The notes below the pieces were generated by a model. It was given only the letters and a program-made list of their open reading frames with translations, was not told the origin of the DNA and made no database searches. From contig CAIMDB010000035.1 of assembly GCA_903839675.1 (NCBI GenBank), forward strand, positions 180,975 through 238,040: a stretch of 57,066 nucleotides of DNA, given 5' to 3'. Positions within the stretch are counted from its first letter, which is position 1. Every line of letters starts with the position of its first letter. The translations under genes were made by a program, and so were the position numbers. Shown here piece after piece: positions 4,296 through 29,810 of the stretch. Source of the stretch: an uncultured Sphingomonadales bacterium (GTDB lineage Bacteria > Pseudomonadota > Alphaproteobacteria > Sphingomonadales > Sphingomonadaceae).

Positions 4296-5354
4296 CTAGG
4301 CCGGTTCTTTGCTGGTCCGCATGACGTCTTGCAGCACGCCAAGGAACTGGTCCGTCGAATAGTTCCAATCAAAGCTCGCGCCATATTGGGCCACGACCTT
4401 GCGATCCATTTTAACAGCGTTGCTAATGGCGTGCGCCAGATCCTCATCCAGCGCGCCCACTGGTTGCGTCAGCGCATCTGTTGGGCCGCGACCGTTAAGG
4501 CCGACGACATCCAATGGCCCCGGCACCGGAAAGCCCGCCACAGGCACGCCACAGGCCAAGGCTTCGATCATGACGAGCCCGAACGTGTCTGTCAGGCTTG
4601 GGAAGACAAAAACGTCTGCCGCGCGATAGGCACTCGCCAGAGCTTCGGCATGTAGTGCGCCAAGAAAGACAGCGTCTGGGTAGCGCTCCCTGAGCATGGC
4701 AAGGTCCGGCCCGTCGCCAACGATGACCTTGGTTCCAGCGGTGGCAAGGCCCAGAAATACTTCTAGGTTCTTTTCAACCGCGACCCGACCGACCGACAAT
4801 AAAATTGGCTTTGGCAGGTTTGCGAGTGCAGGGTGGATATCCCCTTCAGGATGGAAGACGGCTTTGTCGATGCCGCGCGTCCACAGGCGCGCCCGGTCTA
4901 TGCCCCGTCCAGCGAGCTCCTCGCCCAGCCTGGGGGTCGATACGAGCACCGCGCTGGACGATTTGTGAAACCGCCGCATGATCGGCCAGAACCGATCCGG
5001 CGAAATCCCCGTGCGGGCGGCGGCATAGTCTGGGAAGCGGGTGTGGAAGGCCGTCGTAAACCGCACACCATTGGCCTTGCACCAGGCACGCGTGGTCCAT
5101 CCGATAGGACCTTCGGTCACAATGTGGACGACATCTGGCCGGAAGGCCTTCAGCGCCCGCCGCGCGGCGAAGCGTGGGGCAATGGCGAGGCGTATTTCCG
5201 AATAGCCCGGCATCGGCACCGTCAGGAACTGATCCGGCGTGATCAGTTCAACTTCGTATCCCCGCTCCATCAGAATCCCAACCGTTGTTGAGATGCTGCG
5301 GACGACGCCGTTGACCTGCGGGAACCACGCGTCGGTGGCGATCGCAATCCTCAC
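4296..5354 (-). CDS. GT4 glycosyltransferase, Agt-like (glycolipid synthesis)
   Basis: Family 4 (GT-B fold) glycosyltransferase of 352 residues. The N-terminus MRIAIATDAWFPQVNGVVRS is the acceptor-side signature of the subgroup that includes Agrobacterium Agt, which makes phosphorus-free glycosyl-diacylglycerols during phosphate starvation. The C-terminal donor domain shows SVGRVAVEKN, VGDGP, and the EX7E-type motif around TDTFGLVMIEALACGVPV. The ATG overlaps the stop of the upstream metallophosphoesterase by 4 bases. That pairing (phospholipase C PlcP makes diacylglycerol, Agt glycosylates it) is the established lipid-remodelling gene order in several alphaproteobacteria, so substrate assignment rests on context as well as motifs. 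Other GT4 mannosyltransferases have similar N-termini. Confidence 0.8.
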   Translation of the reverse strand: MRIAIATDAWFPQVNGVVRSISTTVGILMERGYEVELITPDQFLTVPMPGYSEIRLAIAPRFAARRALKAFRPDVVHIVTEGPIGWTTRAWCKANGVRFTTAFHTRFPDYAAARTGISPDRFWPIMRRFHKSSSAVLVSTPRLGEELAGRGIDRARLWTRGIDKAVFHPEGDIHPALANLPKPILLSVGRVAVEKNLEVFLGLATAGTKVIVGDGPDLAMLRERYPDAVFLGALHAEALASAYRAADVFVFPSLTDTFGLVMIEALACGVPVAGFPVPGPLDVVGLNGRGPTDALTQPVGALDEDLAHAISNAVKMDRKVVAQYGASFDWNYSTDQFLGVLQDVMRTSKEPA

Positions 5355-6235
5355 GCGGCAACCATCGACTTGGCCGCGTTCTGGCGGTCACGCACAATCT
5401 CTGCCCAGTCGAGGATCGACATGGCGCCCGTGCGGTCTTCAACCAGCGCCGTGCAGCTTTCCACCCAGTCGCCATCGTTATAATAGGTCATGTCACCAAT
5501 CTGCCGGATTTCCGCACAGTGGATGTGGCCGCAGACAACGCCATCAACGCCGCGTTGCTGGGCTTCACGGACAACGGCTTCTTCAAACTGGTAGATAAAC
5601 TGGACGGCGTTCTTCACGCGCTTCTTCAGATAGGCCGAGAGCGACCAATAGGGCATGCCAAAGCGACGGCGGACGCGGTTGAAGATCTGGTTGACGCGCA
5701 GCAGCACCGAATAGGCCTTGTCCCCAAGGAAGGCGAGCCACTTGGCATAAAGGACAATCCCGTCAAAGGCATCGCCATGCGTGACCAACAGACGGCGGCC
5801 ATCGCGCGTTTCATGGATCGCTTCATTGTGAATGGTGATGCCGCCAAAGCTGAGGCCCGCATATTCGCGCAGCATCTCATCATGATTGCCGACAATATAG
5901 ATAACGCGGGTACCGCGATGCGCCATCTTCAAGAGGCGGCGGACGACTTCGTTATGTTCATCGGGCCAGTACCAGCCCTTGCTCAGCCGCCAGCCGTCGA
6001 TGATATCGCCCGTCAGGTAAAGCGTTTCGCATTCGACGCTGGCAAGGAAGTCGAGCAGCAAAGTCGCGTTACAGCCGGACGTGCCAAGATGAATGTCGGA
6101 AATCCAGATGGTCCGGTACTTCTGCTTGGGCGTAAAGCTGCGCGGCTCGGGATGGTCGAGCCAGGTCGGCGGACGAAAATCCATGAGACCCGTGTCGATC
6201 TGCTTTGCGATCAGTTCCTTGGTGCTCGTCGTCAT
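5351..6235 (-). CDS. plcP: PlcP-like metallophosphoesterase (phospholipase C type)
   Basis: Calcineurin-like phosphoesterase of 294 residues. Metal-binding motifs appear in order: SDIHLG (Asp47, His49), GDIIDGW (near 76), GNHDE (near 117), HGDAFDG and GHIH. These enzymes are often named UDP-2,3-diacylglucosamine diphosphatase, but the variant with YWSLSAYLK, RRRGVDGVVCGHIH-type context and NDGDWVESCTAL is the PlcP group, which removes phosphorylated headgroups from phospholipids under phosphate limitation. Direct coupling (4-base overlap) to an Agt-like glycosyltransferase supports PlcP. I chose the ATG at 6235; it is preceded by GGGGGG, whereas an in-frame ATG at 6262 has no visible ribosome binding site. 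The gap to the upstream PLP-fold gene is 59 bases, so they may share a transcript. Confidence 0.82.
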   Translation of the reverse strand: MTTSTKELIAKQIDTGLMDFRPPTWLDHPEPRSFTPKQKYRTIWISDIHLGTSGCNATLLLDFLASVECETLYLTGDIIDGWRLSKGWYWPDEHNEVVRRLLKMAHRGTRVIYIVGNHDEMLREYAGLSFGGITIHNEAIHETRDGRRLLVTHGDAFDGIVLYAKWLAFLGDKAYSVLLRVNQIFNRVRRRFGMPYWSLSAYLKKRVKNAVQFIYQFEEAVVREAQQRGVDGVVCGHIHCAEIRQIGDMTYYNDGDWVESCTALVEDRTGAMSILDWAEIVRDRQNAAKSMVAA

Positions 6236-6294
6236 ATCAACCCCCCGATGTGTTTGCGTCATTTGTGGCGATCTAAAATTTGTCTTGTCAGCGG

Positions 6295-7821
6295 CTATTG
6301 CTTGAGCTTGAGATAGCGCTCGATCCGCCCCGCAATCTGGCCGAGATCATCTGCCAGACGACGTCGGAGCGACGACGTATCCATTGCCGAAAATTCAACC
6401 ATTTGCGGCATCGACAGGCCGATACGCAGGGTCGCTCCAAAGCGACCGTCAGGCATGCGAACGCAGCGGACCGGCTCTCCCAGTCTTAGGCCGAACAGGT
6501 CCTGCACCTTGCCGTCGTCGCCATTGGCCAGCGACTGATGCAGCCCGCGCGCAAATTCGAAGTCATGCGCAGGGTTAATCTCGCTCAGATCGATCGTGGC
6601 TAGCGTCCGGATCTCCATCGGCACGGCCTGCGCTTCCCGCTCATCCATATAACCCATCGGCTTGACATGGCTCGCCCCAAGCCGCCGCGTGAGCACGGCA
6701 ATCTCTTCTTCAAAGAGATCAACCGTGCGCTTGATTTCCGTCGGGTGGAGGCGATGGAACAGTTCCAACTCAAAGATGCTCGCTTCCAGCCGCAGCAACA
6801 GCCCAAGGTTTGAGCCTTGCGGAAGCCGCCCCGCATCTGGCCAAGAGGCAGGCCATTCCGCGCGGAGAAAAACGGTTTCAAAACCGGGAGGCAGAGGCGC
6901 CGCCTTGGCGGCCGTTGCTGCAGGAACGAGCGCAAAGCCGCTGAACGGAGGGCCGCCCATGAACTTGCTGCCCGTCAGGAAAACAGTGCAGCCCCGCGCA
7001 AGATAAGCACCCACCAGGCTGCGACTTATGCGCGCCTGACAAGCATCCACCACGAAGCTCATCTTATCCCCGAAGCGGCGGCGCAGGGCGTCGATATGCC
7101 CCATGGAGGGGGCGACGAGACCCGTCTTAGACCCATGGACCACATGCACGAGCGGATGACGGCCTTGGGCGATCGCTTCGGCCACATAAGCGCCAATCGA
7201 CAAAAGGACGTCTTCGGATGGAAGCGGCTGCCCCTTGTCCGACCGGATCGGCACATCGATCACTTGTATGGTGGCGGCGAAGTCCGCATCCAGCGGAAGA
7301 CCGGCTTCCACCTTGATGCTCTGCGGCGTCACCTTCGCGAAGTGGCAGGCCTTGGCCGCATGGACGCTGCCGTCCCCAACTTCGTCTGCACCAAGCAGAA
7401 TGTTGTCGATACCGGCGGACCCTGCACGAACGGCCGTCGCAAGGCCAACATATTCAAGGTCGGTGCCCGATGCCGCGAAGACGATGTCGACGCTTGTCGG
7501 CACATTCCACGATTTGCGCAGGCGGGACCGAAGGTCTTCCAGCGCGGTTGTGTAACCGTCCTGCTCCAGGACAAAGCCGGGAGCAAGTTCCAGCACGCGA
7601 CGGCGCACTTCGGCCATCGCGGGGACAGAAATGAAGTTTGCTGTCGAAGAGGAATAGGCAATCAGCGTCTGTGGACGCGGCACTGTCAGATAGCGGTTCA
7701 GCCCCGTCGCGGGGTCGATAAGGATGCGCTCATCGCCACCATCGGTCATGATGATCGTCAGCGGGTCAGCCAGCAGGTCATCTTGGTCGTAGCTGGTAAA
7801 CTGCGTTTGAATGACGGCCAT
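6295..7821 (-). CDS. Uncharacterised PLP-fold protein, paralogue A
   Basis: A 508-residue protein that I cannot assign to a named family. It has the layout of a fold-type I (aminotransferase class V-like) PLP enzyme. A conserved VDIVFAASGTDLE near residue 111 could be the cofactor phosphate-binding loop. HVVHGSKTGLVAP lies near 226, VVDACQ near 257 (Asp259 in the place that contacts the pyridine nitrogen), and TGSKFMGGPP near 283 (Lys286 as candidate Schiff-base lysine). A C-terminal domain with MPDGRFGATLRIGLSMPQM follows. Paralogue B at 29835-31349 matches over the whole length. The start is uncertain: ATG codons at 7821 and 7833 and a GTG at 7899 are in frame, none with a good ribosome binding site; B supports a short N-terminus. 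It lies just upstream of plcP on the same strand. Confidence 0.75.
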   Translation of the reverse strand: MAVIQTQFTSYDQDDLLADPLTIIMTDGGDERILIDPATGLNRYLTVPRPQTLIAYSSSTANFISVPAMAEVRRRVLELAPGFVLEQDGYTTALEDLRSRLRKSWNVPTSVDIVFAASGTDLEYVGLATAVRAGSAGIDNILLGADEVGDGSVHAAKACHFAKVTPQSIKVEAGLPLDADFAATIQVIDVPIRSDKGQPLPSEDVLLSIGAYVAEAIAQGRHPLVHVVHGSKTGLVAPSMGHIDALRRRFGDKMSFVVDACQARISRSLVGAYLARGCTVFLTGSKFMGGPPFSGFALVPAATAAKAAPLPPGFETVFLRAEWPASWPDAGRLPQGSNLGLLLRLEASIFELELFHRLHPTEIKRTVDLFEEEIAVLTRRLGASHVKPMGYMDEREAQAVPMEIRTLATIDLSEINPAHDFEFARGLHQSLANGDDGKVQDLFGLRLGEPVRCVRMPDGRFGATLRIGLSMPQMVEFSAMDTSSLRRRLADDLGQIAGRIERYLKLKQ

Positions 7822-7893
7822 CCTTTGCCACATTTGACACGGGTAGAGTAGGCCTAGTTCGTTGCATGGAAACGACAATTTCGTTTCAAATCG

Positions 7894-7932
7894 CGTCACA
7901 AATTTGAGACAAATCTGTCATTTAAGGTCAAT
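7894..7932 (-). promoter_or_regulatory. Candidate operator of paralogue A (11-bp phased TGACA repeats)
   Basis: Read on the minus strand, the A+T-rich upstream region contains TTGACCTTAAATGACAG followed by GTCTCAAATTT and GTGACGC, in roughly 11-base steps with A/T spacers. The first part nearly repeats upstream of paralogue B. A single plus-strand CTGTCAT (7915-7921) equals one half of a PhoB box, but its partner is degenerate, so the regulator is not identified. Confidence 0.35.
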
Positions 7933-7990: not shown

Positions 7991-9664
7991 TCAGCTGCTA
8001 CGCTTCAGGTCCAGCCCCTCGGCACCGCGCACCACCTGCCACTGGCTGATGGGGAAGGTGCGATAACGTTGGGTGGCAATGTTATCCAAGCCCACAAACG
8101 TCGCTCGGCCAACAGCGCGGGTCAGTTCCAGCCGGACATAGCCCTGATGCAGATTGTCGGTCCACAACACTTCGGGATTATGCGCTGTAAAAGCAGCATC
8201 CAGCTTTGCGGAGGTCGCGCGGTCAAAGCCACTTTCGACAAAATCACCGGGCGAGGTGATACCGGCCGTTCCCAGCTCAATGCCTGTGGGGCGCCCAGAT
8301 GCATCCGCCAGGCGGTTGGCCCAGAAGCTATGGCTGTCGCCGGTCAGGAAGATGAGATCATCGGCACCAGCCGCGCGGGCCTGCGTGTAGAAGCGCTCGC
8401 GCGCCCATTCATACCCATCCCATGTGTCGGGATAGAAGGGCAGGTTCCATTTGCCTTTCCACGCCAACTCTCTGGCCGCATCGAGCGGCTTGGGCTGGGT
8501 TTCCGGGTTCGGAATGGTGCCGAGGGCCACAATATCGGGCACGCGGGTCCGTGCAATAGGCATGGGGTTGCCAATGAGCCGCCAAGGCTGCGCCAGTTGC
8601 TTTGAATTCGCCCACGCCGCAGCAAGATCGCTTTCCTGCTCAGCGCTGATCAGGCGACGGTCCGGCGCACCGATCCGGTCACGCTCCATCGCGTCTGCAT
8701 CTGCGCGACTGGTGATCGTCGTGTAAAATGGTGTGTAGTCGACCTGCAGAGCGCGCGCCGTGTGGCGCGTCTCCAGAGTGCTCAGCGTTGCAATGTCGCC
8801 AAAGGAATAATGCCGCCAGAACTGCATCCGGGTGCGGCCGGGGACCGGTTCCCGCACCGGCATCCATTCATAATAGGCCTGGATCGACGCCGCCCTGCGG
8901 GCCGCCCAATCGCCTTCCTTGTCCGGTTGATGGTTCTGCGCACCGCCAGCCCAAGGGTTGTTCGCACTTTCATGGTCATCCCAGCAGGCCAGCAATGGCT
9001 TTGCGGCCAACATGTCCTGAGAGCCGGCATCCGACTTATACTGGGCATGACGCGTCCGATAATCGGACAGGCTGACAATTTCGTGTGCGGGCTCATGGAC
9101 CCGCCCAATCTTGCGGGACACGTCTCCGCCAAAGCCGTCGACGCCATATTCATAGATATAGTCACCTGTGTGCAGCACGAAATCGACAGCCGTGTCTTTT
9201 GCGATGGCATCATAGGCGTTGAAATAGCCGAACGCGAAATTGGAGCAGGAGGCCAGCGCAATGCCCAGCCGTTCCACACGCCCCACCGGCAAAGTCCGGG
9301 TTTGCCCCGCGCGGGACACTGCGCCGCCTGCGCGGAAACGATAATGATAGCGCGCACCGGGCTTCAGTCGGCTGGCGAGAAACTTGGTCGTGAAGTCGCG
9401 ATCTGCGATCGCCATTTGGCGCGCACGCCAGACGATGTTTTGGAACGCGGCGTCGGTCGACACTTCGCATTCAACCTCGACATCAGAAGGCGTGGTGATG
9501 CGGGTCCACAAGACAACGCTGGTTGCATCCGGATCTCCACTCGCAATGCCGTGGAGGAAGGGTCCGCTGGCCGGACTGGTCTGGCCAGTCGCGTTGCCGG
9601 CGATGGTCAAAGCCGTGAGACCGGCCAATGTGGTCCGGCGGGTCAATGGGGCAAAGCGCTTCAT
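7991..9664 (-). CDS. phoD: PhoD-like alkaline phosphatase, Tat-exported
   Basis: A 557-residue PhoD-family phosphodiesterase/phosphatase, which releases phosphate from organic esters outside the cytoplasm. The N-terminus carries a twin-arginine signal (LTRRTTLAGLTALTIAG), so it is exported folded with its metals. The PhoD N-terminal domain (HGIASGDPDATSVVLWTRIT) precedes a metallophosphoesterase domain with HTGDYIYEYG, CWDDHESANN and LTGDSHSFW, supplying metal ligands. I start at the ATG at 9664, directly before the twin-arginine segment; an ATG at 9703 would add 13 residues. It lies 126 bases downstream of a TonB-dependent receptor gene but behind a terminator, so it probably has its own promoter. 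Context with plcP/agt points to phosphate scavenging. Confidence 0.9.
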   Translation of the reverse strand: MKRFAPLTRRTTLAGLTALTIAGNATGQTSPASGPFLHGIASGDPDATSVVLWTRITTPSDVEVECEVSTDAAFQNIVWRARQMAIADRDFTTKFLASRLKPGARYHYRFRAGGAVSRAGQTRTLPVGRVERLGIALASCSNFAFGYFNAYDAIAKDTAVDFVLHTGDYIYEYGVDGFGGDVSRKIGRVHEPAHEIVSLSDYRTRHAQYKSDAGSQDMLAAKPLLACWDDHESANNPWAGGAQNHQPDKEGDWAARRAASIQAYYEWMPVREPVPGRTRMQFWRHYSFGDIATLSTLETRHTARALQVDYTPFYTTITSRADADAMERDRIGAPDRRLISAEQESDLAAAWANSKQLAQPWRLIGNPMPIARTRVPDIVALGTIPNPETQPKPLDAARELAWKGKWNLPFYPDTWDGYEWARERFYTQARAAGADDLIFLTGDSHSFWANRLADASGRPTGIELGTAGITSPGDFVESGFDRATSAKLDAAFTAHNPEVLWTDNLHQGYVRLELTRAVGRATFVGLDNIATQRYRTFPISQWQVVRGAEGLDLKRSS

Positions 9665-9729
9665 ATCCGGATTTCCGTTCTTGGGAATTGTGCGGTCAAG
9701 CATCGGCAGGACCGCGGCGTTTTAACTGG

Positions 9730-13267: not shown

Positions 13268-14866
<1,599 letters not shown>

Positions 14867-17771: not shown

Positions 17772-17900
17772 ATTATGTCTGTCGCAAATGTGTAATAGAA
17801 ATGTCATAGGCGTCCCGTTCTGCAGTAAACGAGGAGTCCCGGTGGGCCCGATTACACGATCTGAATGCCCGGCCAGCCCTGCCTGTGGCGGCCCTGCGTG

Positions 17901-18677
17901 ATGCGTGCCGATTTCTGGCCGCTTGCGCGCCGCCTAACCCTGATTCTGCTTGGGGCCATCCTTGCCTTTCAGGGCGCCCGGCTGATCTGGGCCACAACAA
18001 AGCCGCTCGGACCCCTTGGCAATTGGCCGCAGGCCTCCTCCCTTCAAGGCGCGCTGGCGACGCTTGATCTTGGCACGCTGGATCCCTTTGGCGGGACGGA
18101 TGCCGACGCCAATGGTTCAACGGTCACGTCGCTCACCCTCAAGCTGTTTGGGGTGAGCCTCAACGAAGCGACCGGCCTTGGCAGCGCGATCATCGCCGCG
18201 CCGGACGGCGTGCAATCTAGCTTCGCAGTGGGGGATGAGATTGTCCCTGGCGTCCGGCTGAAGGCGGTCGCTTATGACCATGTGACATTGGACAATGGGG
18301 GCGCGGACGAAACGCTGTTCCTCGATCAGTCCGTTGCAGCCCCCGCCGGCGCAGCAGGCGATGCAAACGGCAAGACTGGGGCGTCCAGCACGGGCGCGCT
18401 CAATGCCGCAAGCTTTACCACCGATATCTCCCTCACACCGCGCAACGTGGGTGGCAAGGTGACCGGATTTCTTGTCCAGCCCAAGGGGGAAGGCGGCGCC
18501 TTCAATGCCGCCGGCCTGAAGCCGGGCGATGTCATTGTCAGCCTCAACGGCGTTCCCGCGCAATCGGTTCAAGACGCCGTCGCCGTTATTTCGCAATTGC
18601 CCGACAAGGGCAATCTGACACTCCAAGTCGAGCGCGGGGGCCAACTCGTGCCGCTCAATGCAAGGATATCAAAATGA
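17901..18677 (+). CDS. gspC: Type II secretion protein GspC
   Basis: Inner-membrane protein of 258 residues that links the inner-membrane platform to the secretin. A short cytoplasmic N-terminus leads to one membrane segment (about residues 10-27). A homology region follows (SLTLKLFGVSLNEATGLGSAII, SFAVGDEIVPGVRLKAVAYDHV), which binds GspD. A C-terminal PDZ domain (GAFNAAGLKPGDVIVSLNGVP) is present, as in the PDZ-type GspC group. I start at the ATG at 17901; an ATG at 17865 would add 12 residues with no hydrophobic character. First gene of the gspCDEFGHIJKLMN operon, overlapping gspD by 4 bases. Confidence 0.9.
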   Translation: MRADFWPLARRLTLILLGAILAFQGARLIWATTKPLGPLGNWPQASSLQGALATLDLGTLDPFGGTDADANGSTVTSLTLKLFGVSLNEATGLGSAIIAAPDGVQSSFAVGDEIVPGVRLKAVAYDHVTLDNGGADETLFLDQSVAAPAGAAGDANGKTGASSTGALNAASFTTDISLTPRNVGGKVTGFLVQPKGEGGAFNAAGLKPGDVIVSLNGVPAQSVQDAVAVISQLPDKGNLTLQVERGGQLVPLNARISK

Positions 18678-20767
18678 AACGGGTCGCAACTGGCCTCATG
18701 CTCGCACTGGCGGCCTATGCGCCGGTGATCGCGCAGACCACGCTCAACCTGCGTGACGCAGATGTGCGGGCCTTCATTCAAGACGCCTCGCGCGTGACGG
18801 GACGCAACTTCATCATCGATGGCCGCGTGCAGGGCAAGGTGACCGTCGTGTCTGACCGGCCGCTGTCGCGCTCCGAATATTTTGAGGTGTTCCTGTCCAC
18901 GTTGCGCGCCAATGGTCTTGTCGCTATTCCGACGTCGAATGGCGCTTACCGCATCCAGCCTGCTGAGACAGCGGCTGCCCAGCCGGGCAAGATCGGCTTG
19001 TCTGGGGCTGCCCGCAACCAGTTCATCACCGAAGTCTTCCGCTTGCGGTCCATTGAGGCCTCCTCGGCGGTAGATACGCTGCGGCCGCTGGTCAGCCGTG
19101 AAGGGTCTGTCACGGCCAATCGCGGCGCCAATAGCCTTGTTGTCGCCGACTATGCCGACAATATCCGGCGCATCCGGTCCCTCCTCCAGCGGATCGATTC
19201 CGATGGCGCCTCCACCGAACTGATCGCGCTGAAGAACGCCAATGCGCGTGACCTCGCCACTTCGCTGCAGCAGCTTATCACGGGCAGCAGCGGTGGCGGG
19301 GAAAACGCCCGCGGCGGCGTCGCGATCGTCGCCATCGACAGCAGCAACTCGCTTGCCTTGCGTGGAGACCGGGGCACTGTCTCCCGCTTTGCCGCCATCG
19401 CCCGTGATCTCGATAAGCGCGCCGCAAGCGGTGCCGAAGTGCGCGTCATCTGGCTCCAGCATGCCGACGCGGCCAAGCTCCTGCCCGTGCTGCAGCAGCT
19501 TGTCGGCCAAGCGGCGATTTCAAGCGGCAGCGAAGGGTCCTCGACCGGTTCCACCGCATCAGCCACCCCCGCGGCCGCTGCAGTGGCGACACCCTCATCC
19601 GGAGGCCGCAACGCACCGGTCATTGCGCGCTATGAAGGCGCGAATGCCATCATCATTTCCGCACCGTCAGACATGCAGCGCACGCTGGGAGATGTCGTCC
19701 GCCAGTTGGACACACGGCGTGAACAGGTCCTGGTCGAAGCGATCATCGTTGAGATTTCGGACACCGCCGCACGCAAGCTGGGCGTCCAGTTCCTGCTCGG
19801 TGGAAAGCCGGGCAGCAACATCCCGTTTGCCGCAACCAACTACTCGAACGCCGCCCCCAATATTCTGACGATTGCAGGCGCTGTGGCGGCACGGGACCTG
19901 AACACAACGACCACCACGATCAACGGCAACACCACAACCACGACCACCAACAATCCGGTCAGCGATCAGCTGGCCCAAGCGGCGGTCAATTCGGTTTTGG
20001 GGGCCGCAGGCGCCTTTGGCGGCTTTGCGACCAATGTCGGCAATAACGGCATTTTCGGTGCCATCATCAATGCCGTCCAGCAGGATAACAAGTCCAACAT
20101 CCTCTCGACACCATCGGTCGTCACGCTCGACAACCAAGAGGCGAAAATCCTTGTCGGGCAGGAAGTACCGATTACGACCGGCGAAAAGCTCGGCGGCAAT
20201 TTCGACAATGCCTTCCGCACCGTGCAGCGCCAAAATGTCGGCATCCAGCTTGAGGTGAAGCCGCAGGTCAATGAAGGCGACGCCATCAAGCTGTTCATCC
20301 GGCAGGAAGTCAGCTCGATTGCCGGGCCGGTGACCAACAATGGCAGTGACCTCATCCTCAACAAGCGGGAAATCCAGACGACCGTGACCGTCGATGACGG
20401 GCAGATCGTCGCGTTGGGTGGCCTGTTGGATGACAATGAACGCCGCACGATCGAGAAGATCCCCTTGCTCGGCGACATTCCGGGGCTGGGCCAGCTCTTC
20501 CGGTCGCGCGCCAAATCGCGTGAGAAGACCAATTTGATGGTCTTCATCCGTCCGACCATCCTGCGCAATGCCGAAGATGCTCGGAAGCTTGCCGAGCGTC
20601 GCTATGGCTATATCCGCGACCAGCAACTCCTGCTGCGCCCCAATGAGGAGCCGAGCCTCGACGAGCTGGTCCGCGACTATATGGGGGCGGAGCTTCCTCT
20701 CCCGGCGCCTGCCGCGACTGAAGCTGCCCCTGCCGCGCCACCGGCCGCAGAAGGGCCAAAAAATTGA
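18674..20767 (+). CDS. gspD: Type II secretion secretin GspD
   Basis: Outer-membrane secretin, 697 residues, forming the exit channel. A signal peptide (MKRVATGLMLALAAYAPVIAQ) precedes the N0 domain (LNLRDADVRAFIQDASRVTG). N1-N3 domains follow (EVFRLRSIEASSAVDTLRPL; ELIALKNANARDLATSLQQL; RVIWLQHADAAKLLPVLQQL), with a Ser/Thr/Ala-rich loop near residues 280-310. The C-terminal secretin domain has VLVEAIIVEISD, LSTPSVVTLDNQEAKILVGQ and VALGGLLDDNE. A Thr/Asn-rich insert (TTTTT pattern) lies near residue 420. No S-domain or pilotin-binding tail is obvious. AAGGA precedes the ATG; the gene overlaps gspC and gspE by 4 bases each. Confidence 0.96.
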   Translation: MKRVATGLMLALAAYAPVIAQTTLNLRDADVRAFIQDASRVTGRNFIIDGRVQGKVTVVSDRPLSRSEYFEVFLSTLRANGLVAIPTSNGAYRIQPAETAAAQPGKIGLSGAARNQFITEVFRLRSIEASSAVDTLRPLVSREGSVTANRGANSLVVADYADNIRRIRSLLQRIDSDGASTELIALKNANARDLATSLQQLITGSSGGGENARGGVAIVAIDSSNSLALRGDRGTVSRFAAIARDLDKRAASGAEVRVIWLQHADAAKLLPVLQQLVGQAAISSGSEGSSTGSTASATPAAAAVATPSSGGRNAPVIARYEGANAIIISAPSDMQRTLGDVVRQLDTRREQVLVEAIIVEISDTAARKLGVQFLLGGKPGSNIPFAATNYSNAAPNILTIAGAVAARDLNTTTTTINGNTTTTTTNNPVSDQLAQAAVNSVLGAAGAFGGFATNVGNNGIFGAIINAVQQDNKSNILSTPSVVTLDNQEAKILVGQEVPITTGEKLGGNFDNAFRTVQRQNVGIQLEVKPQVNEGDAIKLFIRQEVSSIAGPVTNNGSDLILNKREIQTTVTVDDGQIVALGGLLDDNERRTIEKIPLLGDIPGLGQLFRSRAKSREKTNLMVFIRPTILRNAEDARKLAERRYGYIRDQQLLLRPNEEPSLDELVRDYMGAELPLPAPAATEAAPAAPPAAEGPKN

Positions 20768-22275
20768 CCGAACAGGTCCCCATTGAAGCAAGCGCGGTGG
20801 ACACACTTGTCCTGCCCTATGCCTTTGTGCGCAAACATGGGGTCCTCCTCCAAGACGGCGCCGAAGGCAGCTTGCGGGTCTTAATGCGTCCCGGCGCCGA
20901 TGCCCGCGCTTTGCCGGAACTGCGCCGTTGGCTTCAGCGCCCGTTTTCGGTTGAACCGACCAGCGACGAACTTTTCGATGATCAATTGTCGCGCACCTAT
21001 GCGCTGGACGGCTCAACAGCCGCTGCCGCTGGAGAATTCGGCGCGGAAGAAGAGAGCGATCTGTTCGTCGGCGGCATGCCCTCGGCAGATGATCTGCTCG
21101 ATACCGCAGACGATGCCCCTGTCATTCGCCTGATCAACGGCATGATTGCAGAGGCGGTGCGACAGGGCGTGTCCGACGTTCATGTCGAGCCCTTTGAATC
21201 CGCGCTTGTCGTGCGGATGCGCATCGACGGATTGTTGCGTGAAGCGCTGCGTCTGCCGGCCCATGTCGCGCCTGTTGTTGTCAGCCGCATCAAGGTGATG
21301 GCGCGCCTCGACATTGCCGAACGGCGCATCCCGCAGGATGGCCGCATTTCGCTGACACTGGGCGGAAAGCAACTCGACGTGCGTGTCTCGACGCTTCCGG
21401 CCCGCGCCGGGGAACGGGTCGTGCTGCGTATCCTCGACAAGGACAATGCCGCCATGGGCCTGGATGAGCTGGGCATGGATCCGGCCAGCCTTGCGGTCTT
21501 TCGCGGTGCCCTGTCGGACCCCAATGGCATTGTGCTGGTCACTGGCCCCACCGGGTCGGGTAAGACAACATCGCTCTATGCCGGCTTGCGCCTTCTCAAC
21601 AATGGATCGCGCAACATCCTGACGGTGGAAGACCCCGTGGAATATGCCATTGAAGGCGTCGGCCAGACACAGGTGAATGCCAAGGTCGGCATGACCTTTG
21701 CCGCAGGCTTGCGCGCCATTTTGCGGCAGGACCCGGATGTCGTCATGATCGGGGAAATCCGTGACCGGGAAACAGCGGAAATTGCCGTGCAGGCCTCGCT
21801 GACCGGCCACCTCGTTCTGTCCACGGTGCACACCAATGATGCCATCGGCGCGATCACCCGCCTGCGCGATATGAAGGTGGAGCCTTTTCTGCTCGCCTCC
21901 ACATTGCGCGCGGTGCTGGCGCAGCGCCTTGTCCGGCGTTTGTGCGCCCATTGCCGGGTCGAACATGCGGCCACCGATGCCAACCGCCAACTGCCCGGCC
22001 TGAATGCAGAGCGCATCTTTGAACCCGGCGGCTGCGCCCAGTGCAATGACACCGGCTTTAAGGGCCGCGTCGGCGTTTACGAAGCGATCCGCATCGATGA
22101 CAGCATCCGCCAGATGATCAACGACGGATCAGATGAGGACCGCATTTCGCGCCATGTTTTTGCGAACGCCCCCACCTTGTCCCAATCGGTGCTCGGCCTC
22201 GTGCGCGACGGCGTCACCACCGCGGAAGAAGCCATCCGCGTTTCTCGTCAGGATGCGGGCAGTGAGCAGCTTTGA
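20764..22275 (+). CDS. gspE: Type II secretion ATPase GspE
   Basis: Cytoplasmic hexameric ATPase (503 residues) that powers pseudopilus assembly. Visible motifs are Walker A GPTGSGKT at 261-268, the Asp box around LTVEDPVEY, Walker B-type DVVMIGEIRD at 325-334, and the His box TGHLVLSTVHTNDA. A tetracysteine zinc site, Cys394-x2-Cys397 and Cys424-x2-Cys427, is also present. The N-terminal 100 residues hold the domain that contacts GspL. Translation begins at TTG (20764), embedded in the gspD stop (TTGA), a rare start that points to coupling-dependent translation. Confidence 0.96.
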   Translation: MTEQVPIEASAVDTLVLPYAFVRKHGVLLQDGAEGSLRVLMRPGADARALPELRRWLQRPFSVEPTSDELFDDQLSRTYALDGSTAAAAGEFGAEEESDLFVGGMPSADDLLDTADDAPVIRLINGMIAEAVRQGVSDVHVEPFESALVVRMRIDGLLREALRLPAHVAPVVVSRIKVMARLDIAERRIPQDGRISLTLGGKQLDVRVSTLPARAGERVVLRILDKDNAAMGLDELGMDPASLAVFRGALSDPNGIVLVTGPTGSGKTTSLYAGLRLLNNGSRNILTVEDPVEYAIEGVGQTQVNAKVGMTFAAGLRAILRQDPDVVMIGEIRDRETAEIAVQASLTGHLVLSTVHTNDAIGAITRLRDMKVEPFLLASTLRAVLAQRLVRRLCAHCRVEHAATDANRQLPGLNAERIFEPGGCAQCNDTGFKGRVGVYEAIRIDDSIRQMINDGSDEDRISRHVFANAPTLSQSVLGLVRDGVTTAEEAIRVSRQDAGSEQL

Positions 22276-23488
22276 TTACGCCGCGATTGACGCGTCCGGG
22301 CGTGAACGGCGCGGTACAATAGACGCAGAGGACGCGCGGGCCGCCCGCGACCTCCTCCAACGCCGCAATCTTTACCCCGTTGAAGTCACTCATTCGACCG
22401 GACGGACAGCGGCACGCATGCCCCTGTTTTCGCTCGCACGCTTCAAGCAGCGCAAGATGTCAGCGCAACAGCTCACCTTGTTCACGCGGCAGCTGTCGAC
22501 CCTCTGCGCGGTCTCTCCGCTGGAAGAAGCGCTGCGCACCATCGTGCGGCAGACCGAGCAGGACCATGTCCGCCAGATTGCAAGCGACGTGCATGGCGGT
22601 GTGTTTGAAGGCTTGCGCCTTGCCGAGGCGATGGCGCGCGCACCCCGCAGCTTCCCACCCCTCTTCCGTGCGATGGTGTCTGCAGGCGAAGCCGCAGGAA
22701 CCCTGCCCCAGATCCTTGACCGGCTGGCAGATCTTCAGGAACGGCAGGCCGAAGTGCGCGGACGGATTACAGCGGCACTGGCCTATCCCATCGTCCTGAC
22801 CGTGGTCGCGATGATCGTCGTGTTCGCGCTCATGGTCTGGGTCGTGCCCCGCATCGTTGAGCAGTTTGACAATGTCGGCCAGCAATTGCCGCTGCTGACC
22901 CGGATCATCATTTCGCTTTCAGGTTTTCTGGCAAGCTGGTGGCCCCTCATTCTCGCGGTGCTTTTGGGCGGCGCTCTTTTTGGGGGGCATGCCCTGCGGC
23001 AACCCGAGACGCGCCTCCGGTTTGACCGCGCCATCCTGCGGTTTCCTCTGGTGGGCAAGCTCATCCGCGATCTGCACGCAGCGCGGATGGCGCGCACCTT
23101 GGCAACGATGGTCGCCAGCCGCCTCCCCCTTCTCGAGGGCCTTCTATTGACCGGCCAGACCGTCAATAACCGCGCGCTGCGTGTTGCAACGCAGGACATT
23201 GCGGAGTCTGTGCGCAGCGGCGGCAGCCTGTCGGCTGCACTGAAGCGCGCAGGTGTCTTTCCGCCGCTTTTGGTCTATCTGACGGCGTCGGGCGAAAGCT
23301 CAGGCCAGCTGGATCAGATGCTGGAACGGTCAGCCGATTATCTCGAGCGCGAATTTGATCGCTTCACGGCGACCGCGCTCTCGCTCCTCGAACCTGCTAT
23401 CATCGTGATCATGGGCTGCGTCGTGGCGCTGATCGTGCTCGCGATCCTGCTTCCCATCCTTCAGATCGAAACGCTTGCTGCTGCTTGA
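22253..23488 (+). CDS. gspF: Type II secretion platform protein GspF
   Basis: Polytopic inner-membrane protein of about 411 residues that couples GspE to the pseudopilus. Two repeated GspF cytoplasmic domains are visible (QLTLFTRQLSTLCAVSPLEEAL...; RMARTLATMVASRLPLLEGL...). Each is followed by membrane segments, with the last near the C-terminus (IIVIMGCVVALIVLAILLPI). The ATG at 22253 overlaps gspE by 23 bases; a GTG at 22262 would give MSSFDYAAIDASG, closer to the usual family start, so the exact start is uncertain by three codons. Confidence 0.94.
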   Translation: MRAVSSFDYAAIDASGRERRGTIDAEDARAARDLLQRRNLYPVEVTHSTGRTAARMPLFSLARFKQRKMSAQQLTLFTRQLSTLCAVSPLEEALRTIVRQTEQDHVRQIASDVHGGVFEGLRLAEAMARAPRSFPPLFRAMVSAGEAAGTLPQILDRLADLQERQAEVRGRITAALAYPIVLTVVAMIVVFALMVWVVPRIVEQFDNVGQQLPLLTRIIISLSGFLASWWPLILAVLLGGALFGGHALRQPETRLRFDRAILRFPLVGKLIRDLHAARMARTLATMVASRLPLLEGLLLTGQTVNNRALRVATQDIAESVRSGGSLSAALKRAGVFPPLLVYLTASGESSGQLDQMLERSADYLEREFDRFTATALSLLEPAIIVIMGCVVALIVLAILLPILQIETLAAA

Positions 23489-23497
23489 AAGGCTGAC

Positions 23498-23941
23498 ATG
23501 AAACACAAACCCCTCCCCGCTGCAGAAACGGATCAGGACAATGAAGACGGCTTCAGCCTCGTCGAATTGCTGGTCGTCATTGTTATCCTCGGCCTCTTGG
23601 CCACCGTCGTCATGATCAACGTCTTGCCGAGCCAAGACAAGGCGATGCAGAGCAAGGCCAAGGCCGATATCGCAACGCTGAGCCAAGCCGTTGAGATGTA
23701 CCGCCTGAACACCTTGCGCTATCCGGACGGAGCCGAAGGCCTCAATGCCTTGCTCGGCGGGACGAGCACGGCGCCGGGCGGCACAGGCGGCTATATCCGC
23801 AAGCTCCCCAAGGACCCTTGGGGCAAGGACTACCAATACCGCCTGCCCGGCCAGCATGGCGCCTTTGATGTCTATTCCTTCGGGGCCGACGGTGCCGAAG
23901 GCGGCGAAGGCGACGCGGCTGACATCGGCAGCTGGCAGTAA
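23498..23941 (+). CDS. gspG: Major pseudopilin GspG
   Basis: Main subunit of the type II secretion pseudopilus, 147 residues. The prepilin site is Gly18-Phe19, followed by SLVELLVVIVILGLLATVV with Glu at position +5. The prepeptide (18 residues, acidic) is longer than usual. The C-terminal part has the GspG pattern LNTLRYPDGAEGLNAL, YIRKLPKDPWGKDYQYR and DVYSFGADGAEGGEGDAADI, which contains the calcium-binding loop. It is a substrate of the prepilin peptidase at 12284. It lies 9 bases after gspF, so it is not overlapped, in keeping with higher expression of the major subunit. Confidence 0.96.
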   Translation: MKHKPLPAAETDQDNEDGFSLVELLVVIVILGLLATVVMINVLPSQDKAMQSKAKADIATLSQAVEMYRLNTLRYPDGAEGLNALLGGTSTAPGGTGGYIRKLPKDPWGKDYQYRLPGQHGAFDVYSFGADGAEGGEGDAADIGSWQ

Positions 23942-23958
23942 CGGACCAGTCCTCGCAC

Positions 23959-24432
23959 ATGATCCGCAGATCGGCACCCCATGAGACACCAGAGGACCAA
24001 CAGGGATTTACCCTGGTGGAACTGATGGTCGTGGTGGCCATATTGGGCGTCGCGACAACGGCGGTCGCGCTCAACATGCGCGACCCCGCAGGTTCGGTGC
24101 GGAACGAAGCGGAGGCCTTTGCGGCGCGGACCTCAGCCTTGCGGGATGCCGCGATCATCGAGGGCCGCGACATGGCTGTTGCCATTGGGCCGCAAAGCTA
24201 CCGGTTCGAACGGCGGCTGGATGGCCGTTGGATGGCCATGACCGAAAAGCCGTTCGCGCCGGTGCGCTGGGATGAAAAAACGCGAGCCAATACAGCCGCC
24301 AATGGGGACTTACGGATCGTATTTGATCCCACCGGCCTGCCCAGTGAACCGGCGAAGGTGTCCCTCTTGCACAATGACACCGCCATTGGCGTGTCGATTG
24401 ATGCCGAAGGCGCGGTCCATGTCGGATCGTGA
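23959..24432 (+). CDS. gspH: Minor pseudopilin GspH
   Basis: Minor pseudopilin of 157 residues. The prepilin cleavage site is Gly16-Phe17 followed by TLVELMVVVAILGVATTAV (Glu at +5). The remainder is short and beta-rich (FERRLDGRWMAM, LRIVFDPTGLPS), as expected for GspH, which joins GspI, J and K at the pseudopilus tip. It begins 17 bases after gspG and overlaps gspI by 14 bases. Confidence 0.88.
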   Translation: MIRRSAPHETPEDQQGFTLVELMVVVAILGVATTAVALNMRDPAGSVRNEAEAFAARTSALRDAAIIEGRDMAVAIGPQSYRFERRLDGRWMAMTEKPFAPVRWDEKTRANTAANGDLRIVFDPTGLPSEPAKVSLLHNDTAIGVSIDAEGAVHVGS

Positions 24433-24781
24433 GTCCGGCTTTACACTTATCGAAATGATGGTGGCGCTGGCCATCTTCAGTCTCGCCGCGCTCGCCCTGA
24501 TCCGGCTGAATGCAGCGACAGTGCGCACGTCAGCAGATGTCGCCACGCGGACCTTTGGGCAGATCGTGGCGCAGAACATTGCTGCGGAAACAATCACCGA
24601 TCCCGTAGCGCCGTCGGTTGGCCGTGCGGTTGGCACCACCGAAAATGGCGGCCGCAGCTGGATTTGGGCGCGCACAACAAGCCGCACGGCGGACCCGGCC
24701 CTTCTCCGCGTCGACGTCACAGTCACAGACCCCCAACGCCGCTTTGCTGGCGCCCTGACGGTCGTGCGGAAATCGAAATGA
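24419..24781 (+). CDS. gspI: Minor pseudopilin GspI
   Basis: A 120-residue minor pseudopilin. The start at 24419 gives a 7-residue leader ending Gly7-Phe8, followed by TLIEMMVALAIFSLAALAL with Glu at +5. The C-terminal half contains WIWARTTSRTADPALLRVDV, close to the GspI pattern. It overlaps gspH by 14 bases and gspJ by 4 bases. A longer reading upstream would run inside gspH and has no leader. Confidence 0.9.
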   Translation: MSDRESGFTLIEMMVALAIFSLAALALIRLNAATVRTSADVATRTFGQIVAQNIAAETITDPVAPSVGRAVGTTENGGRSWIWARTTSRTADPALLRVDVTVTDPQRRFAGALTVVRKSK

Positions 24782-25374
24782 CCGCCGCCACGCCTGAAAC
24801 GCAGGGCTTTACCCTTGTCGAGTTGGTCGTCGCGCTAGCGATTTTCGGCCTATTGGCCGCCGCGGGTACAAGCATGCTTGGCGCGGCCGTCTCCACACAG
24901 GCAGCCGTCGGCACGGCGCTGGGCAAGGTGGCCGGAGAGCGGCGCATTTCGGCGTTGCTACAGGCCGATCTGCAACAGGCCGTCGCACGCCCGACGCGCG
25001 ATGCCAATGGCCGACTAGAACCGGCCTTTGCCGGTCCCGGTGATGGGCGTTTGCTCTCCTATGTGCGGGCCGGCTGGTCGAACACGACCGACGCTTCAAG
25101 GGCGGAACTCCAGCGCGTGGACCTGCGCATGGAGGGCAACCGTCTGGTGCGCGCTGCCCGCCCCATGCTGGATGGCGCCGGGTCGGAAACGGAAATGACG
25201 CTGGCGCAGGACCTCGCCTCAGCAACGGTCCGGCTGCGAGATGCGAAGGGCCAATGGGGCGACGGCGCGACCAATGAAGATCCGACAGCCCTTCCCGTGG
25301 CCGCAGAGCTCACACTCGTCCAGCGTGACGGGGTATCCGTACGTCGCGTCTTTCTGGTCGGGGCAGGCGCATGA
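24778..25374 (+). CDS. gspJ: Minor pseudopilin GspJ
   Basis: A 198-residue minor pseudopilin. Starting at 24778 it has a 10-residue leader ending Gly10-Phe11, followed by TLVELVVALAIFGLLAAAG with Glu at +5. Family features include SALLQADLQQAVARPTRD and LSYVRAGWSN. It overlaps gspI and gspK by 4 bases each. In the tip complex GspJ contacts GspI and GspK. Confidence 0.92.
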   Translation: MTAATPETQGFTLVELVVALAIFGLLAAAGTSMLGAAVSTQAAVGTALGKVAGERRISALLQADLQQAVARPTRDANGRLEPAFAGPGDGRLLSYVRAGWSNTTDASRAELQRVDLRMEGNRLVRAARPMLDGAGSETEMTLAQDLASATVRLRDAKGQWGDGATNEDPTALPVAAELTLVQRDGVSVRRVFLVGAGA

Positions 25375-26357
25375 TCGGCGAGAGCAAAACCGATCGGGGC
25401 AAAGAAGAAGGCGCCGCCCTCCTGACGGTGCTGTTGCTGGTCGCCGTCATATCCGTCCTCGCCATGTCGGCACTGGACAAGCTGACGATTGCGACGCGCC
25501 TTGCCGGAAACATGTCGGCGATGGACCAGTCCCGCGCTTATGCGCAGGCCGGTGAACTGGTCGCGGCCTCCCGCATTGCCAGCATCGCGCAGGCATCGCC
25601 GGGGCGCACAACCTTGGCCGGTGGCTGGATGGGCAAACCCATGCCCTTTCCCATCGATGGCGGCACCGCCACGGTGACGCTGCGTGATGCCGGAAACTGC
25701 TTCAACCTGAACTCGCTTGTCATAGGCGGCGGGGAAGGCGGCTATACCGCGCGGCCTGCCGCGATCGTGCAGTTTGAAGGCCTGATGGTCGCCATCGGTA
25801 TCGCCAGACCGACCGCACGCCGGATTTCGCTGGCCGCGACCGACTGGATCGATAGCGATACCCAGCCGCTGCCCGGTGGGGCGGAAGATGAGAGTTATGA
25901 CGGTTATCGCACCGGCAATACGCTGATGGCCGACGCCAGCGAGTTGCGGGCCGTCGCGGGTGTTTCGCCTGAGGTCTTTACAGCCTTACGCCCCTGGATC
26001 TGCGCCCTTCCCGATACGGAATTGTCGCCACTCAACGTCAATACGTTGACCGAGAAGCAGTTTCCCTTGCTGATGATGCTGTTGCCGGGCCAATTGCCCG
26101 ATGCCTCTGCCCGCAAGCTCATCGCGGAGCGGCCCGCCGATGGCTATTCGAGCATGGTTGATTTCTGGAAGCTACCGGCACTGGGCGGGGTTACACCCGC
26201 GGCGGAAGTGCTCGGCCAGCCACAATTGCGGACGACCTGGTTTGATTTGGCTATTGCGATCGAACTGGGCGGCATCCAATTCCGTCAGTCCAGCTTGCTG
26301 GATGGCCGGATGCAGGTCATCAAAACCGTCCGGCGAAGTTTTGGGGGAAATTCGTGA
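25371..26357 (+). CDS. gspK: Minor pseudopilin GspK
   Basis: The largest minor pseudopilin, 328 residues, capping the pseudopilus. The leader ends Gly14-Ala15 and is followed by ALLTVLLLVAVISVLAMS. The usual Glu at +5 is replaced by a hydrophobic residue, which is normal for GspK. The globular part includes the two helical repeats typical of the family (ELRAVAGVSPEVFTAL; LNVNTLTEKQFPLLMMLLPG) and DWIDSDTQPLPGGAED, which matches a GspK loop. It overlaps gspJ and gspL by 4 bases each. Confidence 0.94.
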   Translation: MIGESKTDRGKEEGAALLTVLLLVAVISVLAMSALDKLTIATRLAGNMSAMDQSRAYAQAGELVAASRIASIAQASPGRTTLAGGWMGKPMPFPIDGGTATVTLRDAGNCFNLNSLVIGGGEGGYTARPAAIVQFEGLMVAIGIARPTARRISLAATDWIDSDTQPLPGGAEDESYDGYRTGNTLMADASELRAVAGVSPEVFTALRPWICALPDTELSPLNVNTLTEKQFPLLMMLLPGQLPDASARKLIAERPADGYSSMVDFWKLPALGGVTPAAEVLGQPQLRTTWFDLAIAIELGGIQFRQSSLLDGRMQVIKTVRRSFGGNS

Positions 26358-27412
26358 CAGAGTATACGGGACTGGTTCTCTTAGCTGGAGAACAGACGCG
26401 CTGGTGGCGCTTTACGGACGGCGCGCCGGTCGCATCCGGCACCGGCTTGCCCGAACGTGCCGAGAATGAAGCGGTCGCGGCCATTTATCCGGCAGCTGAA
26501 ACGACGCTCTTCATGGGCCTTGGTGCCGGGCTACCGCGCGCTCAGGCGGTCGCCATTGGCCAACGCATGGCAGCAGACAGTGTCCTTGCCGCGCCTGAGG
26601 ACCTGCATTTTGCAGCGGGTGCCCATATCGCTGTTGTTGACCGCCACCGCTTCGCCGCTTGGCTGGCAGACCTGACAGAGGCGGGCCTCGCGCCTGCACC
26701 GATCATTCCGGCACAGCTTGTTCCGGCGGCTGTGGAACAGGGCTTTGTCCGCATGGCCGTGGGCGAAGAAACGGTGCTGCGGAGCAGCGACCTCGCCTTC
26801 CTATCGGACCCCGCCTATGACGAGGTTCTGATTGCCAACCAGCATGTTGAGCAGCTGTCCGAGGAAGATGAGGTCCTCCAGCTGGCCCGTGCGGTGGTGG
26901 CCGCCGAGGTTGATCTGCGGCAGGGGGCCTTTGCGCCCGCCCGCTCTTGGGGATCAACGCGACGCTTTGCCCAGATATGCGGCGTCCTTGTCAGCCTCAT
27001 CTTGCTGGCGACCGTTCTCACCCCGTTGATGCTTGCCGTGCGCCTGCAACTGTCGGCAGCTCAGATTGACCGGACATCCGATGATCTTGCCCGCACCGTC
27101 GTCGCCGGGGAAGAATTGGAACCTCAGGCCGCGCTGGAACGACGACTGACGGCACTGCGCGGACCCGGCCTTGGCTTTAGCGCAACGGCGGCGGCGCTAC
27201 TGGATGCGGTGAAATCGACCAAGGGCAGTTCGCTCGCTGCGCTCACCTTCGATGCGCAGGGCGTTGCCAAGGCGACGGTACAGGCACCGAATGAGGCAGA
27301 CTTGCTAGCGATGGCAGACCGCATCCGGGCCGCTGGACTAGACGTTAACCGGGGGCCGACCAGCGTGACCAATGGCGCGCGCCGCACCGCATTTGAAGTG
27401 AGGGTGAAATGA
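26354..27412 (+). CDS. gspL: Type II secretion protein GspL
   Basis: A 352-residue bitopic inner-membrane protein that recruits GspE. The N-terminal part (about 1-205) is the actin-like cytoplasmic domain. One membrane segment follows near 212-235 (ICGVLVSLILLATVLTPLML), then a periplasmic ferredoxin-like domain. The start is GTG at 26354, overlapping the gspK stop (GTGA). Sequence conservation of GspL is low, so identification rests partly on its place between gspK and gspM. Confidence 0.88.
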   Translation: MTEYTGLVLLAGEQTRWWRFTDGAPVASGTGLPERAENEAVAAIYPAAETTLFMGLGAGLPRAQAVAIGQRMAADSVLAAPEDLHFAAGAHIAVVDRHRFAAWLADLTEAGLAPAPIIPAQLVPAAVEQGFVRMAVGEETVLRSSDLAFLSDPAYDEVLIANQHVEQLSEEDEVLQLARAVVAAEVDLRQGAFAPARSWGSTRRFAQICGVLVSLILLATVLTPLMLAVRLQLSAAQIDRTSDDLARTVVAGEELEPQAALERRLTALRGPGLGFSATAAALLDAVKSTKGSSLAALTFDAQGVAKATVQAPNEADLLAMADRIRAAGLDVNRGPTSVTNGARRTAFEVRVK

Positions 27413-27885
27413 TGGACGACCTGCGGGACTGGTGGCTTGGCCGGACGCCACGCGAACACATCCTTTTGCTGGTTCTTGCAGCCTTGGTTGCCGGAATGGT
27501 CGCTTGGCTGCTGATCTGGCGGCCGGTGAATGCTTATCTTGAAACGTCGCGAACGGTGCAGTCCGAGGCGCTCGATCGGCTGTCCCGCACACAGGCCATG
27601 GTCGCCGAGGCGAAGCGCATTGGCGCGGCGCCTGCCAGCAGCGGGCTGGATATCGGGGCGGTCATCACCCAATCGGCGATTGAGGCAGGCTTCACGCTCG
27701 CCAAGAACGAACAAGGCCAGCCCGGCCAATATCAGGTGGTCATCAGCGCGGCGAAAGCGCGCGCTCTATTTGCTTGGCTCGGCGGGCTTGAACGGCAGGG
27801 CGTGATTGCGCAGACCGCTTCTATTCGCGCCAACGGGGACGGCACCGTGACTTTTGATGCTGTCCTAAGGGCACGCGGCGCATGA
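27409..27885 (+). CDS. gspM: Type II secretion protein GspM
   Basis: A 158-residue inner-membrane protein partnering GspL. A short basic N-terminus (WWLGRTPREH) leads to one membrane segment at about 18-38 (ILLLVLAALVAGMVAWLLIW). A coiled segment and a small periplasmic domain follow. The start is at 27409 (overlapping gspL by 4 bases), with a second ATG three bases later. GspM sequences vary; the WW-x-R-x-PREH pattern and the position make the call safe. Confidence 0.9.
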   Translation: MMDDLRDWWLGRTPREHILLLVLAALVAGMVAWLLIWRPVNAYLETSRTVQSEALDRLSRTQAMVAEAKRIGAAPASSGLDIGAVITQSAIEAGFTLAKNEQGQPGQYQVVISAAKARALFAWLGGLERQGVIAQTASIRANGDGTVTFDAVLRARGA

Positions 27886-29171: not shown

Positions 29172-29450
29172 ATGAGTGACGCCACCTTCACCTTCCGCGT
29201 TGATGACGATCTCAAGCGGGCATTTGTGGAGTCTGCAAAGGCTGCAGACCGTCCGGCGGCCCAAATTTTGAGGGCCGCGATGCGCCAGTTCATCGCCGAA
29301 CAGGATGCAGTCGCTGTCGCCGCAGGTTGGCTTCCCGCCAAGTTACGGCGCGCCCGCGCTGATGTGGCGGCTGGCCGGATCTATGACCATGATGATATGA
29401 AAGCCCGTTTCGCGCGATATCGGGCAGCAGCAAGGGCCGCCGCGATATGA
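29172..29450 (+). CDS. Ribbon-helix-helix antitoxin (ParD/RelB-like)
   Basis: A 92-residue protein with a ribbon-helix-helix N-terminus (TFTFRVDDDLKRAFVESAKAADRPAAQILRAA pattern, read in two parts). Such antitoxins bind their own promoter and, through the C-terminal tail, the toxin. It overlaps the toxin gene by 4 bases. The 80 bases upstream are markedly A+T-rich and probably contain the autoregulated promoter; I find no clean operator palindrome. Confidence 0.85.
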   Translation: MSDATFTFRVDDDLKRAFVESAKAADRPAAQILRAAMRQFIAEQDAVAVAAGWLPAKLRRARADVAAGRIYDHDDMKARFARYRAAARAAAI

Positions 29451-29781: not shown

Positions 29782-29810
29782 TTGTCACATAAATGACCTT
29801 AAAATGTCAC
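29782..29810 (+). promoter_or_regulatory. Candidate operator of paralogue B (11-bp phased TGTCAC repeats)
   Basis: TTGTCAC (29782-29788) and ATGTCAC (29804-29810) are exactly 22 bases apart, with ATGACCT midway at 29793, each followed by an A/T-rich tetramer. This 7+4 spacing resembles tandem PhoB half-sites (CTGTCAT-N4), although the middle unit is degenerate. The part ATGACCTTAAAATGTCA recurs with one indel upstream of paralogue A. Confidence 0.4.

Follow-up and report, generated by a model that had tools for sequence, protein, structure and literature searches.

A predicted class V-like PLP-dependent enzyme family of Sphingomonadales without a curated model, its ATP-grasp ligase partner, a diverged paralogue and a putative phosphate-starvation link

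Class V fold-type I enzymes dependent on pyridoxal 5′-phosphate (PLP) include NifS/SufS, AGXT and PhnW. The desulfurases use a PLP-stacking histidine of a Glu-His-His motif. PlcP and Agt form a known phosphate-starvation pair, and an Agt homologue makes MGDG and GADG in E. coli (PMC4796936). In Caulobacter, a type II secretion system lies beside a phosphate-starvation lipoprotein gene (PMC2996285). The present study concerns two genes, A and B, on a stretch of 57,066 nucleotides of contig CAIMDB010000035.1 from an uncultured Sphingomonadales bacterium; this whole stretch is called the window. A stands for a genuine subfamily, as yet uncurated, within a known fold, and its strong association with an ATP-grasp partner was not seen described. 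No publication on this PLP family was recognised in the literature searched.

Gene A occupies positions 6295 to 7821 on the minus strand and encodes 508 residues from an ATG at 7821; a GTG at 7899 is a possible alternative start, which would give 534 residues. Gene B lies at 29835 to 31349 on the plus strand and encodes 504 residues. An earlier note on this DNA had given the coordinates correctly, without the strands, and the six sequence blocks which it quoted as shared were each found in both proteins by pairwise alignment. The proteins are 45% identical (215 of 479 aligned residues, E 7e-128) and are the sole family matches in the 2.9-Mb assembly, which is 96% complete. The two lysines proposed as key residues, Lys286 of A (codon at 6964 to 6966, minus strand) and Lys289 of B (30699 to 30701, plus strand), are both the lysine of the GSK motif. 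Lys286, the putative Schiff-base lysine, does not vary among the 61 core and 15 distant homologues, and Lys289 is the retained lysine of B in the alignment with the family. The ATP-grasp partner, its absence from the window genome and the Pho boxes are all additional to the earlier note.

That A and B belong to no named family, as had been suggested, held for Pfam and NCBIfam. A had no Pfam match, B had one below threshold, and neither matched NCBIfam. PF00266 (Aminotran_5) gave no match for A or B up to E 10, and its curated cut-off was not reached. The Pfam match of B, OAM_dimer (E 0.064, below cut-off), was dismissed as chance. A phmmer search of PDB sequences with B likewise gave nothing beyond chance, with a designed protein at E 0.42. 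One match (L013, E 1e-3) was rejected as a family member; its sequence reads as class V aminotransferase-like, a superfamily relative. The proposed PLP fold was borne out by a confident structure model made for A, by fold matches and by the invariant Lys, Asp and Gln. The model predicts an aspartate-aminotransferase-like fold with a small C-terminal domain, and the alignment places the Schiff-base Lys, the pyridine-nitrogen Asp and the class V Gln in both A and B. On this basis, A is a predicted member of a fold-type I, class V-like PLP-dependent enzyme family without a curated model. The extra C-terminal domain once proposed did not stand: the structural alignments with NifS and AGXT extend to residue 508 of A, and therefore the C-terminal part is an ordinary small domain with insertions. 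Further invariant residues in the 61 core and 15 distant homologues (A numbering) are Ser118, Gly119, Thr120, Gly149, Ser231, Lys232, Asp259, Gln262, Arg264, Gly284, Ser285, Phe287 and Arg344, and Arg466 is invariant except for one gap. Judging from comparable motifs in class V enzymes, Gly119-Thr120 would belong to the phosphate cup, and the arginine that holds the substrate carboxylate is presumably Arg466.

NifS was the best fold match of A by Z score, carbon-sulfoxide lyases including Egt2 ranked high by E-value, and the best profile match, a weak one, was a cysteine desulfurase. These matches would suit a family of cysteine-desulfurase or C-S-lyase-type class V enzymes (NifS/SufS/EgtE-like) acting in sulfur delivery or C-S cleavage. 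However, all class V groups score alike at such a distance, and the histidine of the Glu-His-His motif appears absent, since A has Glu-Val-Gly at this site (Val148-Gly149) in a weak alignment (E 0.011). Besides, among the neighbours that were named, the recurrent partners are ATP-grasp ligases and not Fe-S or sulfur-carrier genes, a single Fe-S protein having been taken as local synteny. A role of the desulfurase or lyase type is thus unlikely. A also carries RLGEPVRC at 446–453, with Gly in B at the Cys position; this segment is no more than a possible counterpart of the desulfurase catalytic Cys loop.

A DNA-pattern scan of public genomes gave 348 relatives, and the best 80 of them, nearly all Sphingomonadales by title, made up the locus survey. 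By tblastn, 76 of the 80 kept loci encode an ATP-grasp protein, and in 75 its gene and the PLP gene are divergent and lie within 500 bp of each other; codon-scored gene calls alone gave 72 of 80, and the final count was made by tblastn. The loci without it are L053, L074 and L088, which start at the contig end or no more than about 500 bases from it, and L076, which holds the B orthologue. Among 249 genomes of the window's taxonomic family, the ATP-grasp gene was found in 37 of 39 genomes with the PLP gene and in 50 of 210 without it (Fisher p 1.1e-17; matches at E < 1e-100, 87 of 98 reported). All of the genomic pairs are divergent, and 36 of the 37 are less than 500 bp apart, the last being 1.2 kb apart. 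Two family-positive genomes are without the ATP-grasp gene, the window genome and G002, which belongs to the same genus. The survey thus shows a conserved partnership of the PLP gene with an ATP-grasp ligase across Sphingomonadales. The partner matches Pfam Dala_Dala_lig_C and its structure model resembles D-Ala-D-Ala ligases, with NCBIfam scores far under the curated Ddl cut-offs. Three loci (L019, L028 and L054) contain two ATP-grasp copies each; the second copies of L019 and L028 are more diverged, being 47% and 53% identical to the sequence that heads the alignment.

The PLP gene itself was found in 39 of the 249 genomes of the taxonomic family, in 8 of 60 drawn from relatives, in 4 of 190 drawn from the class with a single-sequence query (one being the weak L013 match) and in 25 of 398 of the phylum by profile search; the window's own genome is included in each count. 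The gene is thus patchy and not universal. Two unusual gene forms were seen. In L035 (8924–11542) and L006, the family gene lies inside an open frame of about 870 residues, whose N-terminal extension runs across the ATP-grasp gene of the opposite strand (G022); the long frame therefore probably stems from gene calling and does not represent a fusion. In G326 (C7:107379–108790), the family gene is split into two pieces that overlap and lie in different frames, which is a frameshift or sequencing error; two ATP-grasp copies are next to it (L114).

Directly after the ATP-grasp gene, a MobA/IspD-like nucleotidyltransferase gene (Pfam name from one member) is present in 30 of 76 loci, and flippase-like, acyltransferase and diacylglycerol-kinase-like genes occur near some family loci. 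PntC-AEPT, which joins a cytidylyltransferase with an aminoethylphosphonate transaminase, and PhnW are among the fold matches of A. Taken with the nucleotidyltransferase and flippase-like genes, this would fit an aminotransferase feeding a nucleotide-activated product. On the other hand, no nucleotidyltransferase was seen beside A or B, and the same gene follows the ATP-grasp gene even without the PLP gene, as seen in 10 of 13 regions of genomes that lack the family (L103, the fourteenth, had no ATP-grasp gene call and was excluded). Such a role therefore seems rather unlikely. A 'sugar-transfer associated ATP-grasp' is found in five of these 13 regions (Pfam run on two of the five). Many Erythrobacteraceae loci also keep a 2Fe-2S/4Fe-4S protein, AFG1, RNase E, a penicillin-binding protein and an amidase as neighbours; these were set aside as a functional link and taken as local synteny.

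Distant relatives were compared in 14 regions (including L111 and L112), of which 11 had a family gene call; L143, L147 and L150 were excluded. A Pyridoxal_deC-type gene, so labelled by Pfam on four members of the group, lies within two genes in 8 of the 11, and in a ninth (L112) within 4 kb. Seven of the 11 have a RimK-like ATP-grasp gene, a label based on a PDB profile match to 3vpd (E 3.6e-4) and on rimK_fam (E 0.014, below cut-off); its alignment with the Sphingomonadales ATP-grasp proteins is weak (hhalign E 0.12). A flagellin gene is adjacent in L112, and FlgK- and FlgE-like genes are present in L139 and, by clustering, in L145 and L149. Relatives were also found on 33 plasmid records (Rhizobium 18, Sinorhizobium 14, Neorhizobium 1). 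Among 12 plasmid relatives listed, all are annotated 'hypothetical protein' and 11 overlap a non-ribosomal peptide synthetase (NRPS), AMP-binding or adenylation gene, mostly in S. medicae. The RimK-like and NRPS-type neighbours indicate that in several settings the partner is an amide- or peptide-bond-forming enzyme.

In the window, a PlcP-like metallophosphoesterase gene (5351–6262) lies just 3′ of A and is overlapped by an Agt-like GT4 glycosyltransferase gene (4296–5354), while a PhoD-like phosphatase gene assigned by Pfam (7991–9703) lies 5′ of A; all three are on the minus strand, as is A. The earlier note had called the first two plcP-agt. Pfam supports a calcineurin-like phosphoesterase and a GT4 enzyme, but the NCBIfam matches of both genes are below curated cut-offs, and the names PlcP and Agt come from gene order and from the literature (PMC4796936). 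The PlcP-like gene shows 90% identity over 286 residues to the gene 3′ of the A orthologue in Chakrabartia godavariana (L015). Pho-box-like arrays were scored as three 11-bp TGTCA-type units, with a consensus based on that of E. coli. The top three sites of the window, all on the plus strand, lie upstream of B (29782–29810, score 15.0), upstream of the type II secretion operon that separates the two genes (17779–17807, 15.0) and in the upstream region of A (7893–7921, 14.5, opposite to A); none of 300 region shuffles reached the score at A or at B. Phased repeats of the PhoB-regulon type thus appear to be present at both promoters. As a control, the pstS-like promoter of the window genome scores 14.5. 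An array of score 14.0 is also present upstream of the B orthologue in L076. A, B, this orthologue, L015, L016 and L017 fall in one clade (support 100/100), and all six score 14–17, with 0 or 1 of 300 region shuffles reaching each score. Of 646 control promoters of other genes in the loci, five reach 14; two of the five are one gene met in two loci, the plcP-like gene of C. godavariana, and two more are its orthologue of the window gene at 13268–14866, likewise counted twice, whose L015 copy (870–2447) has the top control score, 15.0. For this window gene (plus strand, 532 residues), Pfam gives nothing at E 0.001 and NCBIfam nothing significant. The type II secretion operon (17865–28601, plus strand) encodes GspC, D, E, F and GspN. 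Together with TonB receptors and PhoD, it makes this block look like a phosphate-starvation island.

No ATP-grasp homologue was found in the window genome. Since the assembly is 96% complete, absence of the ligase is likely but not certain. In C. godavariana, ATP-grasp and acyltransferase genes are divergent from the A orthologue and PlcP-like and Agt-like genes lie downstream; in the window, PhoD takes the place of the former two. The ligase was thus apparently lost from the window genome. This loss, and the change of B at many conserved residues, could mean that A and B are decaying leftovers. However, both genes are without stop codons, a Pho box is kept 5′ of the B orthologue, and dN/dS (NG86, each against one relative) is 0.11 for A and 0.13 for B, similar to 0.12 for Agt and with 0.08 for the PlcP-like gene, although these values are rough because dS is near 1. 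Decay is accordingly quite improbable, and B looks neofunctionalised rather than decaying.

The earlier note's diverged pair with an undescribed role stands in a sharper form, with B as the diverged copy. Phylogenetically, B and its orthologue fall within the A clade, set apart by a branch 1.46 changes per column long. B departs from the family at 33 of 110 conserved columns (at least 92% in 50 other members) and its orthologue at 30, whereas all other members depart at 7 or fewer, with a median of 2. This paralogue has been seen only in the window's genus so far. Asp30, Arg32, Thr60, Gly119, Thr120, Gly149, Lys232, Cys261 and Arg466, among others, are changed in B. The loss of Gly119, Thr120, Gly149, Lys232 and Arg466 under purifying selection would suit a PLP-binding or PLP-free pseudoenzyme, for example a regulator. 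In the other direction, B keeps the Lys286 equivalent, Asp259, Gln262, Ser231, Arg264 and Arg344, and its orthologue occurs in G002, where no A was found, so that B is not simply a partner of A. A pseudoenzyme is plausible, though less likely than not; with Lys, Asp and Gln kept and the phosphate-cup Gly-Thr, Lys232 and Arg466 lost, either a different reaction or a non-catalytic role would be most likely for B. A ParE-like toxin gene (29447–29722, plus strand) lies directly 5′ of B, and one is found at the same position by the B orthologue in L076.

We propose that A is a PLP enzyme paired within its family with an amide-forming partner and acting in phosphate-starvation envelope remodelling, with B as a diverged copy; this reading is given a probability of about 0.5. 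A would generate or modify an amino acid or a small amine as an external aldimine on Lys286, with the substrate carboxylate held by Arg466. The partner, a D-Ala-D-Ala-ligase-like ATP-grasp enzyme in Sphingomonadales and a RimK-like ATP-grasp enzyme or NRPS in relatives, would attach this product through an amide to an envelope glycolipid, glycan or peptide. Considering the Pho boxes upstream and the plcP-, agt- and phoD-like neighbours in the window lineage, A is probably induced by phosphate starvation and may act in envelope remodelling. Several points weigh against this proposal. Nothing in the analysis points to a substrate or product, and the class V sequence link is weak (hhalign E 0.011, PDB profile E 0.44). 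The ATP-grasp gene occurs without the PLP gene in the 50 genomes counted above, and with no detectable ligase the paired mechanism is incomplete in the window genome unless another ligase serves. The distant genomes include three of one genus and two of another, so that their counts are not independent. Most of the family is without a Pho box: from 58 divergent promoters, with L030 (too short) and L109 (a duplicate of L015) dropped, none of the 53 others reaches 14. The array at A faces away from the gene, and the plcP-like gene of the window scores 10.5 (61-bp gap). A simple count over the whole window finds the motif no more often than expected (63 against 71.6), at least 2 of 40 shuffles of the full window attain 15.0, and the decision to look for such sites followed inspection of the A and B promoters.

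A far more specific version, which we regard as highly speculative, is that the PLP enzyme works with the Ddl-like ATP-grasp ligase during phosphate starvation, so that an amine is made and amide-linked to an acidic glycolipid, giving a phosphorus-free zwitterionic lipid that replaces phosphatidylethanolamine. The acceptor could be, for instance, a uronic-acid glycolipid made by Agt-type enzymes from PlcP-released diacylglycerol, and B would be a recent variant with new chemistry in the genus of ligase loss.

With its near-fixed ligase partner, this uncurated PLP family suggests that Sphingomonadales have an amide-forming pathway not yet described. By its distant relatives, some of which lie beside flagellin or NRPS genes, the pathway would extend to other proteobacteria. 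A tractable place to seek the product is offered by the Pho link and by the genome with partner loss, and B is a natural experiment in which core PLP and substrate residues are lost under purifying selection.

Compared with PlcP-Agt lipid remodelling, A lies just upstream of the PlcP-Agt-like pair with Pho-box-like repeats, but no PLP or ATP-grasp enzyme turned up in the system as described in the available part of PMC4796936. The phosphate-lipid reading is thus well placed by context, and a lipid role of A is put forward as a proposal. With PntC-AEPT, many family relatives have in common the PLP fold and a neighbouring nucleotidyltransferase; here, in contrast, the genes are separate and the nucleotidyltransferase goes with the ATP-grasp gene. 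D-Ala-D-Ala ligases share their predicted fold with the partner, which differs in its scores far below Ddl cut-offs and was not found in the window genome. The class V fold-type I enzymes NifS/SufS, AGXT and PhnW share the predicted fold of A over about 350 residues and, in a weak profile alignment, the Asp/Gln/Lys register. The identity in fold alignments is, however, 10–15%, without an Aminotran_5 match or a histidine at the Glu-His-His site. The family is about 120–150 residues longer than these enzymes and has conserved motifs of its own, SGTD, GSKF and R-x3-SMPQ.
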